From Microbacterium enclense (GTDB taxonomy: Bacteria; Actinomycetota; Actinomycetes; Actinomycetales; Microbacteriaceae): 64,000 nt of DNA. The translations under genes and the position numbers were made by a program. The stretch lies in NCBI RefSeq assembly GCF_001456955.1, contig NZ_KQ758468.1, forward strand, positions 310,001-374,000, given 5' to 3'. The notes under the pieces are model-generated. The model was not told the origin of the DNA and did not search any database. It was given only the letters and a program-made list of their open reading frames with translations. This document shows, piece by piece, positions 48,042 to 61,273 of this stretch (positions within the stretch are counted from its first letter, which is position 1; each line of letters opens with the position of its first letter).

Positions 48042-48125
48042 GTGCGCAAGGTCGGTGATGTGCACAAAGTCAGTCGGAGGGGCGGGATGCCGACGGAGTT
48101 CGTGCACATCGCGGAGGTTGTGCGC
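48042..48125. repeat. 84-bp four-box palindromic element, copy 1
   Basis: The left arm is GTGCGCAAGGTCGGTGAT then GTGCACAAAGTCAG; the right arm is the inverted equivalent, GAGTTCGTGCACATCGCGG then AGGTTGTGCGC. The spacer contains GGGATGCCGA. It lies upstream of the DUF559 gene. Confidence 0.9.
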
Positions 48126-48186
48126 GGGTGCAGGGGCGCGCACGGGCAGCGTGCGCACGGCGTGGAGGGAGAGCACGACGAGGAGC

Positions 48187-48222
48187 GTGCGCAAGGTCGG
48201 TGACATCGCGGAGGTTGTGTGC
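48187..48222. repeat. collapsed 36-bp derivative of the 84-bp element
   Basis: Outer left box GTGCGCAAGGTCGGTGA is joined directly to the outer right part CATCGCGGAGGTTGTGTGC; the two inner boxes and the spacer are missing, as if deleted between the inner arms. Confidence 0.8.
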
Positions 48223-48275
48223 CGGCGCGAGCGGGCCGCGTGCGCAAGGCGTGGACGGTGAGCACGGCGAGGAGC

Positions 48276-48359
48276 GTGCGCAAGGTCAGTGATGTGCACA
48301 AAGTCAGCCGGAGGGACAGGATGCCGACGGAGTCTGTGCACATCGCGGAGGTTGTGCGC
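48276..48359. repeat. 84-bp four-box palindromic element, copy 2
   Basis: Same length and layout as copy 1 (GTGCGCAAGGTCAGTGAT, GTGCACAAAGTCAG, spacer with GGATGCCGA, then GTGCACATCGCGG and AGGTTGTGCGC). Its flank (CGTGCGCAAGGCGTGGA onward) is a direct repeat of the flank of the collapsed copy, period 89 bp. It ends 100 bp before the DUF559 start. Confidence 0.9.
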
Positions 48360-48459
48360 GGGTGCGCCCACGACCTCACCCGTCCTCCACAGGCCGACCT
48401 TGTCCCCGAAAGTGACGGGATGCGTCCTCGCGCGCGCGGCCGTCGCGGAGCATGTGGTC

Positions 48460-49299
48460 ATGCAGATCGATCGCGTGCGCGCCGTCGCCGACCGTGTCGC
48501 CGACCTGGGCGGCGTGGCCCGACCCACCCGACTCGTACGGGAAGGCCACGGGCGTCGCCAGGTCTCGGAGGCCGTTTCACGCGGTCTGGTGACACGGGTG
48601 CGGCGCGACTGGATCGCGAGCCCCGGCGCCGACGAGTACCTGGTCGCGGCGGCGAGGACCGGAACCGTTCTGTCCTGCGTCACGGCCGCGGAACGACTCG
48701 GACTCTGGGTGCACGAGCGTCCACCCCAGCCGCACGTCGCCCATCCCGGGCGGGGAAAGATCGCCGCGACGGCCGCGGTCGTGCATTGGCAGCGCGCGAT
48801 CGTTCCTCGGCATCCTGATCTTCTCGAAGACGGCATCGAGAACGTGCTGATGACCGTCGCCGCGTGCCGCCCCTACGAACAAGCCCGCGCGGTGTGGGAA
48901 TCGGCGCTCAACAAGCGACTCGTCGACCTGCCCGGGCTGGAGCGACTTCCCTGGGTCGGCGTCGCGCGACGCCTCGCGCAGGAGGTGACGCCCTGGGCGG
49001 ACTCCGGGCTGGAGACCTATTTCGTGACGCGCCTGGGCTGGCTCCGCCTGCCGATTCGGACGCAGATATGGATCGAGGGGCACCGCGTGGACTTTCTTAT
49101 CGGGGAACGACTCGTGGTGCAGATCGACGGCGGTCACCATGTCGGCCGACAGCGGTCGGAGGACAACCGACACGATGCAGCGCTCATGCTGCTGGGTTTC
49201 CGCGTCATGCGCGTGAGTTACGAGCAGGTGATGCATCGGTGGCCAGAGGTGCAGGAGCAGATCATGCAGGCGGTGGCGCAAGGTCTTCATCGCGCGTGA
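48460..49299 (+). CDS. DUF559 (Vsr-like) nuclease-family protein with AbiEi-like N-terminus
   Basis: A 279-residue protein. The first 80 residues look like a winged helix of the AbiEi type (ADRVADLGGVARPTRLVREG; RQVSEAVSRGLVTRVRRDW). The last 90 form a Vsr/PD-(D/E)XK-like DUF559 domain: RVDFLIGERLVVQIDGG, HHVGRQR, then RHDAALMLLGFRVMRVSYEQV. At the position where many DUF559 proteins have E-x-D, this one has Q-x-D. ATG 48460 has GGAG nine bases upstream. It is an isolated gene with 84-bp palindromic elements on both sides. Nuclease activity and target are unproven. Confidence 0.8.
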   Translation: MQIDRVRAVADRVADLGGVARPTRLVREGHGRRQVSEAVSRGLVTRVRRDWIASPGADEYLVAAARTGTVLSCVTAAERLGLWVHERPPQPHVAHPGRGKIAATAAVVHWQRAIVPRHPDLLEDGIENVLMTVAACRPYEQARAVWESALNKRLVDLPGLERLPWVGVARRLAQEVTPWADSGLETYFVTRLGWLRLPIRTQIWIEGHRVDFLIGERLVVQIDGGHHVGRQRSEDNRHDAALMLLGFRVMRVSYEQVMHRWPEVQEQIMQAVAQGLHRA

Positions 49300-49337
49300 A
49301 CCGCACGGGTGAGCCGGGGGTTTCGAGGTGCGGCGAC

Positions 49338-49457
49338 GTGCGCAAGGTCGGTGGTGCGCGCAAGGTCGGTGGTGTGCGCAAGGTCGGTGGTGTGCGCGAA
49401 GTCAGCGGGAGGCGCGGGATGGCGACGGAGTTCGTGCACATCGCGGAGATTGTGCAC
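49338..49457. repeat. 84-bp element copy 3 with extra tandem half-boxes
   Basis: The canonical 84 bp is 49374-49457 (GTGCGCAAGGTCGGTG to ATTGTGCAC). Two extra copies of GTGCGCAAGGTCGGTG-type boxes precede it from 49338, giving four boxes in a row on the left side at about 16-18 bp spacing. It starts 39 bp after the DUF559 stop. Confidence 0.88.
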
Positions 49458-49494
49458 GGGTGGGGCGGCGCTCGCGGCGCGCGCACACCGCGCT

Positions 49495-49578
49495 GTGCGC
49501 AAGTTCAGAGATGTGCACAAAATCAGCGGCAGAGTGCGGATGCCAACGGAGTTCGTGCACATCGCGGAGGTTGTGCAC
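49495..49578. repeat. 84-bp four-box palindromic element, copy 4
   Basis: GTGCGCAAGTTCAGAGAT and GTGCACAAAATCAG on the left, GTGCACATCGCGG and AGGTTGTGCAC on the right, with a GGATGCC spacer. Same 84-bp length. Confidence 0.9.
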
Positions 49579-49615
49579 GGGTGGTGCGGCGCTTGCGGCG
49601 CGCACAGCCCGCGCC

Positions 49616-49699
49616 GTGCGCAAGGTCGGTGGTGTGCACAAAGTCAGCGGCAGGGTGCGGATGTCAACGGAGTTCGTGCACATCGCGGAGGTTGTGCAC
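49616..49699. repeat. 84-bp four-box palindromic element, copy 5
   Basis: GTGCGCAAGGTCGGTGGT and GTGCACAAAGTCAG on the left, GTGCACATCGCGG and AGGTTGTGCAC on the right. The spacer has GGATGTC instead of GGATGCC. The sequence after copies 3, 4 and 5 is also repeated (GGTGG then GCGGCGCT/GCGGCGCTTG). Confidence 0.9.
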
Positions 49700-61081: not shown

Positions 61082-61165
61082 GTGCACAAAGTCAGTGATG
61101 TGCGTCACGTCAGTGGCATCCGGGGCCGTCGGGCGGAGTTTGTGCACATCGCTGAGGTTATGCAC
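61082..61165. repeat. 84-bp four-box palindromic element, copy 6
   Basis: GTGCACAAAGTCAGTGAT and GTGCGTCACGTCAG on the left; GAGTTTGTGCACATCGCTGA and GGTTATGCAC on the right; the spacer carries GGCATCC. It keeps the 84-bp length although many bases differ from the 48-49 kb copies. Confidence 0.85.
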
Positions 61166-61189: not shown

Positions 61190-61273
61190 GGGCACAGAGT
61201 CAGTGATGCGCGTCACGTCAGTGGCATCCGGGGCCGTCGGGCGGAGTTTGTGCACATCGCTGAGGTTGTGCAC
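61190..61273. repeat. 84-bp four-box palindromic element, copy 7, and a remnant after it
   Basis: Same layout as copy 6 with the first box decayed (GGCACAGAGTCAG). The right arm is GAGTTTGTGCACATCGCTGA then GGTTGTGCAC. It is 108 bp after copy 6. A shortened remnant (ACGAAGTCGGTG, then CGCATCCGGGG) follows at about 61304-61336. Confidence 0.82.

Follow-up and report, generated by a model that had tools for sequence, protein, structure and literature searches.

The AbiEi-like, DUF559-containing protein encoded at positions 48460 to 49299 of a 64,000-nucleotide stretch of the Microbacterium enclense genome (the window) very probably forms one cognate unit with the 84-bp repeated elements that lie on both sides of its gene. 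Computational analysis established that flanking elements across the order are gene-specific, that element and protein diverge together, that the elements are dispersed and that a single site can carry any of several element families; it also gave a predicted fold with AbiEi-like and Vsr-like parts, in which acidic residues are retained.

The gene, its protein and its flanking elements

The open reading frame runs from an ATG at 48460 to a TGA ending at 49299. The gene is chromosomal and sits among housekeeping genes, between valS (class I tRNA synthetase) and an ABC transporter operon, and was not seen within another gene. Its closest titled relative is that of Microbacterium sp. SORGH_AS_1204 (96% identity). 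The features of the window, with their positions, are:

48042..48125, + strand: full 84-bp element, upstream copy 1
48187..48222, no strand: collapsed element, a single forward box joined to a single reversed box
48276..48359, + strand: full 84-bp element, upstream copy 2
48386..48392, + strand: TCCACAG motif, past upstream copy 2 and ahead of the start codon
48460..49299, + strand: gene for an AbiEi-like plus DUF559 protein with a predicted Vsr/I-Bth0305I-type nuclease domain, 279 aa (PF04480 profile, predicted fold)
49338..49373, + strand: pair of additional forward boxes that keep the phase of the following element
49374..49457, + strand: full 84-bp element, downstream copy 1
49495..49578, + strand: full 84-bp element, downstream copy 2
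49616..49699, + strand: full 84-bp element, downstream copy 3
61082..61165, + strand: dispersed full element between ndk and a VKOR-family gene, ~12 kb beyond the gene
61190..61273, + strand: second dispersed full element, in tandem at a 108-bp step

Each full element is built of four boxes: an 18-bp box (consensus GYGCRCAAnnTCnGYGAT) repeated twice in forward orientation, a 12-bp spacer, and the box repeated twice as its reverse complement. A preliminary description of this DNA had reported five full copies and one collapsed copy around the gene, two and the collapsed one upstream and three downstream, all full copies being 84 bp long with a four-box structure. Both coordinates and build were confirmed, with the inner boxes fitting the consensus less well (up to three mismatches, which was also the limit for listing a box, so that some inner boxes beyond it are unlisted). 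The copies it named were correct, but its list lacked the two boxes at 49338–49373 and the copies at 61082–61165 and 61190–61273. When the first copy was used as query, the other four gene-flanking copies matched with E values from 7e-30 to 7e-21. A 96%-identical relative (L338) carries one full upstream element against the two full and one collapsed of the window, and thus the upstream array appears to have been altered recently by tandem steps.

The elements had also been called palindromic, which holds for the arrangement of two forward and two reversed boxes but not for hairpin covariation. Across 24 copies from the same genome and 36 pairs, standard pairs occupied 76.5% of cells, compared with 78.4% when partners were shuffled, and compensating changes in the arms were not enriched within these 24 copies (8 double-change pairs versus 10.3 shuffled). 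The symmetry of these elements, termed family 1, is in this genome that of repeated boxes rather than of a co-varying hairpin. Such absence of covariation suits a row of protein-binding boxes, for which there are no binding data. An RNA or single-strand hairpin was excluded as the conserved feature of family 1 given the lack of covariation in the 24 copies, despite strong single-strand folding of five elements (z −3.9 to −8.2). A reading of TTGTGCACA within the boxes as a DnaA box was dropped as many boxes read GCGC at that place. Separately, GGATGCC was the most over-represented 7-mer in the window and the fetched stretches of the same genome (496 sites versus 370 expected). It is present in 14 of the 24 elements, often within the spacer, and may serve as a signal throughout the genome, Chi-like or of another kind.

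Upstream of the family genes, the motif TCC(A/C)CA(C/G) is strand-specific and present at half of the loci, being found between −130 and −20 in 85/170, on the reverse strand in 8/170 and in far stretches in 3/169. Pairs of TCCnCA spaced 9–29 bp apart occur in 40/168 loci, most commonly at spacings of 18 (10 loci) and 27 (9 loci). The motif reads TT(A/G)TCCACA in 20/168 loci, resembling a DnaA box.

The PF04480 (DUF559) profile matched residues 198–272 of the window protein (E 1.7e-10, 41.2 bits against a cut-off of 20.6), and PADLOC models for AbiEi (E 8e-5) and for a homing endonuclease (E 0.006) also touched it. An AlphaFold2 model was obtained with a pLDDT of 91.4, and only structural matches to AbiEi and to the Vsr-like group were used. 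Residues 182–276 superposed on the catalytic domain of the I-Bth0305I homing endonuclease (3r3p; Z 12.7, rmsd 2.5, 94 residues aligned) and residues 182–277 on Vsr (1vsr; Z 10.1, rmsd 2.3, 95 aligned), with NGO0050 matching the C-terminal domain at Z 12.6. The preliminary assignment of a nuclease-like C-terminus is supported by profile and predicted fold alike. Its AbiEi-like N-terminus, only weakly indicated by the AbiEi_4 profile (E 0.13), is borne out by the predicted fold of residues 4–177, which matched the AbiEi antitoxin 6y8q (Z 9.1, rmsd 4.7, 173 aligned). Glu185, Asp211 and Asp235 are present in all 168 family proteins counted and Asp223 in 166, proteins with stops or of 220 residues or fewer having been left out. 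Nuclease activity remains an inference, resting only on the fold match and on the conservation of these acidic residues.

Cognate flanks, dispersal and history in related genomes

Within its own genome, one copy as query returned 32 family-1 strand-matches (E ≤ 0.001). Another ten clusters were retrieved; each of them, like the clusters of the window, lies between called genes. By position, no DUF559 gene is found at any of the ten, and no strong family-1 match was found beside the other DUF559 genes of this genome; next to the C5 paralog, two weak matches to the element model were found (E 0.0027 and 0.012). Taken alone, this genome speaks against an association of nuclease and element. That apparent refutation was lifted when three AbiEi–DUF559 paralogs (C1:158772, C4 and C5) proved to have upstream and downstream flanks that match each other, each in its own distinct way. 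The flanks of a further paralog, C1:695459, match only weakly (score 56), and the three remaining DUF559 genes were left out of this comparison. Where two different genes share a genome (11 pairs), their elements scored 36–74 for similarity. The elements of the window gene and the C5 paralog, the top pair at 74, may be distantly alike; the other pairs scored 36–61.

The preliminary description held that its reading would fail if element copies in related genomes showed no association with DUF559 genes, or if genomes that never had the gene carried as many copies. A protein search of 119 Microbacterium genomes found relatives in 114 at E 1e-10, most genomes of the genus carrying several family genes, and close orthologs of 68–86% identity in seven other genomes. 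In each of the seven, the gene is bordered by the family-1 element both upstream and downstream (8/8 loci with the window). As the ortholog also adjoins valS in each of them, flanking in those seven alone could reflect shared ancestry. Between genomes, the window protein shows 68–86% identity versus 83–96% for its neighbours, and by these values the family-1 gene diverges faster than the genes around it. Weaker matches to the element model occur beside more distant DUF559 genes and also at other places, and the flanks of those distant genes contain elements of the same build and of different sequence.

A family-wide test was performed in which the two 360-bp flanks of each gene were locally aligned on both strands and each gene's own pair was compared with all mismatched pairs. 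For 40 Microbacterium loci, own flanks averaged 100.5 versus 51.9 for mismatched pairs, with 69.0 the largest of 5000 permutations; these 40 include one place twice (L111 and L137) and have L107, L112 and L114 in the wrong orientation, and with both points corrected the own mean was 100.8 (39 loci). For other genera of the order, 59 of 70 loci were used, nine from the own genus and the cut-off loci L201 and L207 being left out, and own flanks averaged 83.3 versus 41.0 (permutation maximum 50.2). Here 27/59 loci exceeded the mismatched 99th percentile, compared with 5/59 for control stretches lying 1100 bp farther from the gene. Titled records of Microbacterium, Agromyces, Leucobacter and unplaced actinobacterial genomes supplied another 63 loci (17 of 80 had already been used and were left out), which gave 96.8 versus 48.6 with a permutation maximum of 56.3, and 32/63 exceeded the 99th percentile versus 0/59 far controls, the own flank ranking first in 29/63. 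The 99th percentile was missed by 32/59 of the out-of-genus loci and by 31/63 of the further loci. Across genomes, with the element on both sides of all seven orthologs and gene-specific flanks in other genera, the association is supported. At E 1e-15, 122 of the 248 genomes searched in the order have relatives of the window-protein alignment. Close relatives (56–58% identity) of these actinobacterial genes are also encoded in records titled Planococcus sp. APC 4015 (L358, L366), whose title or assembly may be wrong.

De novo dyads exceeded the 95th percentile of shuffles in 122/210 flanks versus 33/209 far stretches. An 18-bp period was found in the dyad arms of Microbacterium (0.504 versus 0.267; 58 arms, related loci included) and was faint outside the genus (0.303 versus 0.261; 72 arms). 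Between different genes, element similarity above 78 was reached by 31/189 pairs at protein identities of 60% or more (30/188 binned pairs and one pair at 92%) and by 0/552 pairs below. Element and protein similarity were correlated (rank correlation 0.26, reached by 3/2000 permutations). Locus L111 is the same place as L137 and was left out of the dyad and element–protein counts. As far as sequence comparison can tell, the element follows the protein, and paralogs in the same genome share little.

The element model matched in 33 of the 119 genomes, with 12 or more matches in 14; these counts include both strands and are lower bounds for each genome. In a ValS tree of 37 selected genomes, not all 119, eight gene-bearing and eight gene-less genomes form one clade (support 100/99) that contains all 14 element-rich genomes. 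The eight clade members in which a genome-wide search found no ortholog still have from 4 to at least 37 family-1 matches, and so the elements persist without the gene; the assemblies of two of them, G016 and G055, are only 86–87% complete. Copy number was compared with gene presence, as suggested in the preliminary description. More matches were found in gene-bearing than in gene-less clade members (Mann–Whitney p 0.026), on counts that are lower bounds and include both strands, but the copy number of some genomes without the gene equals that of genomes with it. As far as tested, the second ground for failure did not arise: the element-rich genomes all fall in this clade, where gene-less members are mixed among gene-bearing ones, so that loss of the gene is the simpler reading, one that the tree leaves unproved. 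The gene label requires 6 changes on the tree, as few being seen in 48/500 shuffles, and the supported sister pairs G009–G055 and G092–G071 differ in gene presence. Since the gene occurs on both sides of the first fork of the clade, one gain with repeated loss would be the simplest reading, not a proof. In G069 a single element stands beside valS and the gene is absent there; in G016 this place is not visible as the contig ends.

Three families were traced from their own gene, family 1 and those of the C4 paralog and of a gene outside the genus (G300), and all three are dispersed. The C4 element has three copies around its gene and is found at four further places in the same genome, with matches in 31 of the 119 genomes, many weak (a lower bound, as are the match counts per genome in that search). 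The G300 element is found twice around its gene and at 13 further places in the same genome; in 15 other genomes it gave weak partial matches in two and none in 13.

The region between sufU and sufE (L266–L280) acts as a harbour, with three palindrome families or none among related genomes. The gene pair was found in 15 of the 16 clade genomes, G083 lacking a sufE match. Eight of the 15 carry family-1 elements between the two genes, and five a different palindrome termed family 3. In G020 the site has two copies of the element that belongs to a distant DUF559 gene of that genome, whereas in G016 it has no element and the genes are 88 bp apart. Read from sequence alone, this pattern is what independent arrivals would leave. 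No clean target-site duplication was found at the suf junctions by eye, and exact junctions were unreadable.

If family 3 (GAGTGTCC...GGACACTC) is of the same kind, some AbiEi–DUF559 gene should have it on both sides. Arrays of motif matches lie at L121 14074–14588 and L124 13231–13601, in two clade genomes. Of 20 genomes searched, 15 contain family 3; G069 gave 81 strand-matches, and the genome of the window gave none. Eight stretches were fetched, three of which had been chosen for copies ~1.1–1.2 kb apart, and two of these three, from G069 and G024, have an open reading frame (296 and 297 aa, respectively) between two copies. The two proteins are 67% identical and both match AbiEi models (best E 2.6e-10 for G069 and 4.8e-8 for G024). 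Against the Pfam DUF559 cut-off of 20.6, the G024 protein passes (26.4) and the G069 protein falls just under (19.3). A protein search at 1e-10 found no relative of the window protein in G024. The third stretch (L325) holds two other genes, and neither it nor the five further stretches has a DUF559 match. The prediction held in two genomes.

Proposed function and competing explanations

On balance, the nuclease probably reads its own boxes, and its cutting probably spreads or maintains these. That the protein binds the boxes, that it cuts, and that cutting is what spreads the element are all inferred in the absence of biochemical data. According to PMC7319586, AbiEi antitoxins act as monomers on inverted repeats within the promoters of their own genes. 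Rv2827c recognises four repeats of this kind, and neither of the two members tested bound the sites of the other. Because AbiEi proteins thus bind promoter repeats in a member-specific manner, the window protein is inferred to read its own boxes. The gene and its flanking elements would then be a unit of a repeat-plus-nuclease system that is REP/RAYT-like and not related to REP/RAYT. The AbiEi-type part (a winged helix plus a second domain) would read the 18-bp boxes private to the protein, of which each element has four, and the Vsr/I-Bth0305I-type C-terminal domain would nick or cut DNA at the element or next to it. As these breaks are repaired, elements may be copied into new intergenic places, and the gene-flanking copies may also be kept alike. 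A REP/RAYT-like unit of nuclease and repeat had been proposed in the preliminary description; its cognate association holds across genomes, despite the contrary appearance of the window's own genome, but spreading as opposed to mere reading of the repeats has not been demonstrated.

The main rival, which we consider unlikely though far from dismissed, is that the elements are AbiEi-type operators for their own gene, and perhaps for genes near the dispersed copies, and that some other process, and not the nuclease, spreads them. The antitoxin precedent cited above lends itself to this explanation, and the dyads that pass in 62 upstream flanks are centred at a median of 178 bp from the aligned gene start. 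Dyads pass about equally downstream, however, in 60 flanks with centres at a median of 82 bp past the gene, where no promoter of the gene would be expected. Dispersal and the occurrence of several families at one site also need a mover. No Y1 (HUH) transposase (PF01797) was found in any of eight element-rich genomes, with matches in 5 of 14 control genomes; only the Y1 type was searched for, and other movers lie outside this search.

Less likely still is a defence or self-marking nuclease that cuts incoming DNA, with the dispersed elements holding or titrating it or marking the chromosome as self. An abortive-infection system is the known setting of AbiEi (PMC3985639), the PADLOC models mentioned above touch the protein, and its fast divergence would suit conflict. 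Set against this, no defence genes are found among the nearest neighbours, which are valS and the ABC transporter operon, and the close orthologs keep their place beside valS in all seven genomes. That the gene merely sits within a repeat-rich intergenic region can be given hardly any credence, for although tandem duplications are found among the copies of the window and the upstream copies are fewer in the 96%-identical relative, the family genes have their own matching flanks that did not vanish against far-flank controls, same-genome paralogs share little, and a family found at a distant site led to its gene.

For the cognate nuclease–repeat system, a wider proposal can be made, to which we give roughly even weight for and against. 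Actinomycetota would contain an entire class of mobile repeats that is convergent with REP/RAYT and in which an AbiEi-type operator turned into a transposable palindrome, spread by a Vsr-fold nuclease and not by an HUH transposase, with many specificities replacing each other at shared harbours. If this is so, palindromic repeats in bacteria are moved by two or more unrelated enzymes, a testable role falls to a gene family that is very common and has no known function, and the spreader of REP-like repeats in high-GC Gram-positives becomes directly testable. As most Microbacterium genomes carry several of these genes, nature may also offer in this family a collection of DNA recognition specificities.

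Comparison with known systems

In the open PubMed Central literature, as far as its text was available and without subscription papers or preprints, no paper was found that connects dispersed palindromes with fusions of DUF559 or AbiEi. The system is counted as new because neither its enzyme nor its repeat belongs to a known repeat–mover pair in the literature searched. The window protein shares the fold of its C-terminal domain with Vsr and I-Bth0305I, but its DNA-reading part is different and its gene lies between housekeeping genes; its likeness to homing endonucleases is a fold match only.

With AbiEi of the type IV toxin–antitoxin systems it shares the two-domain fold predicted for residues 4–177 and a setting of repeated inverted sites upstream of the gene, which AbiEi binds (PMC7319586). 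In contrast to AbiEi, the window protein is fused to a nuclease domain and its element is also found downstream and dispersed. No nucleotidyltransferase toxin gene adjoins the window gene, whose neighbours encode ValS and ABC transporter parts, and because of this the system is not an AbiE toxin–antitoxin system.

The closest likeness in layout is to REP/RAYT. Repeats of the REP type can outlive their gene, and window-type elements likewise persist in genomes without the gene. A repeat-flanked gene, dispersed repeats, co-divergence, synteny and fast evolution are described for RAYT in PMC2817692, and correspond here to a cognate palindromic repeat on both sides of the gene, copies elsewhere in the genome, a protein and repeat that appear to co-diverge, orthologs that stay syntenic while both change, and a gene that evolves fast. 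The enzyme differs, being an AbiEi plus Vsr-like (DUF559) protein and not a Y1 transposase. The element, of ~70–110 bp and mostly four boxes, is larger than REPs of 20–40 bp (PMC3733652), and the family-1 arms lack compensating changes. Because there is no Y1 transposase in the eight element-rich genomes and no co-varying hairpin, the window system is not a member of REP/RAYT, but is convergent with it in layout.
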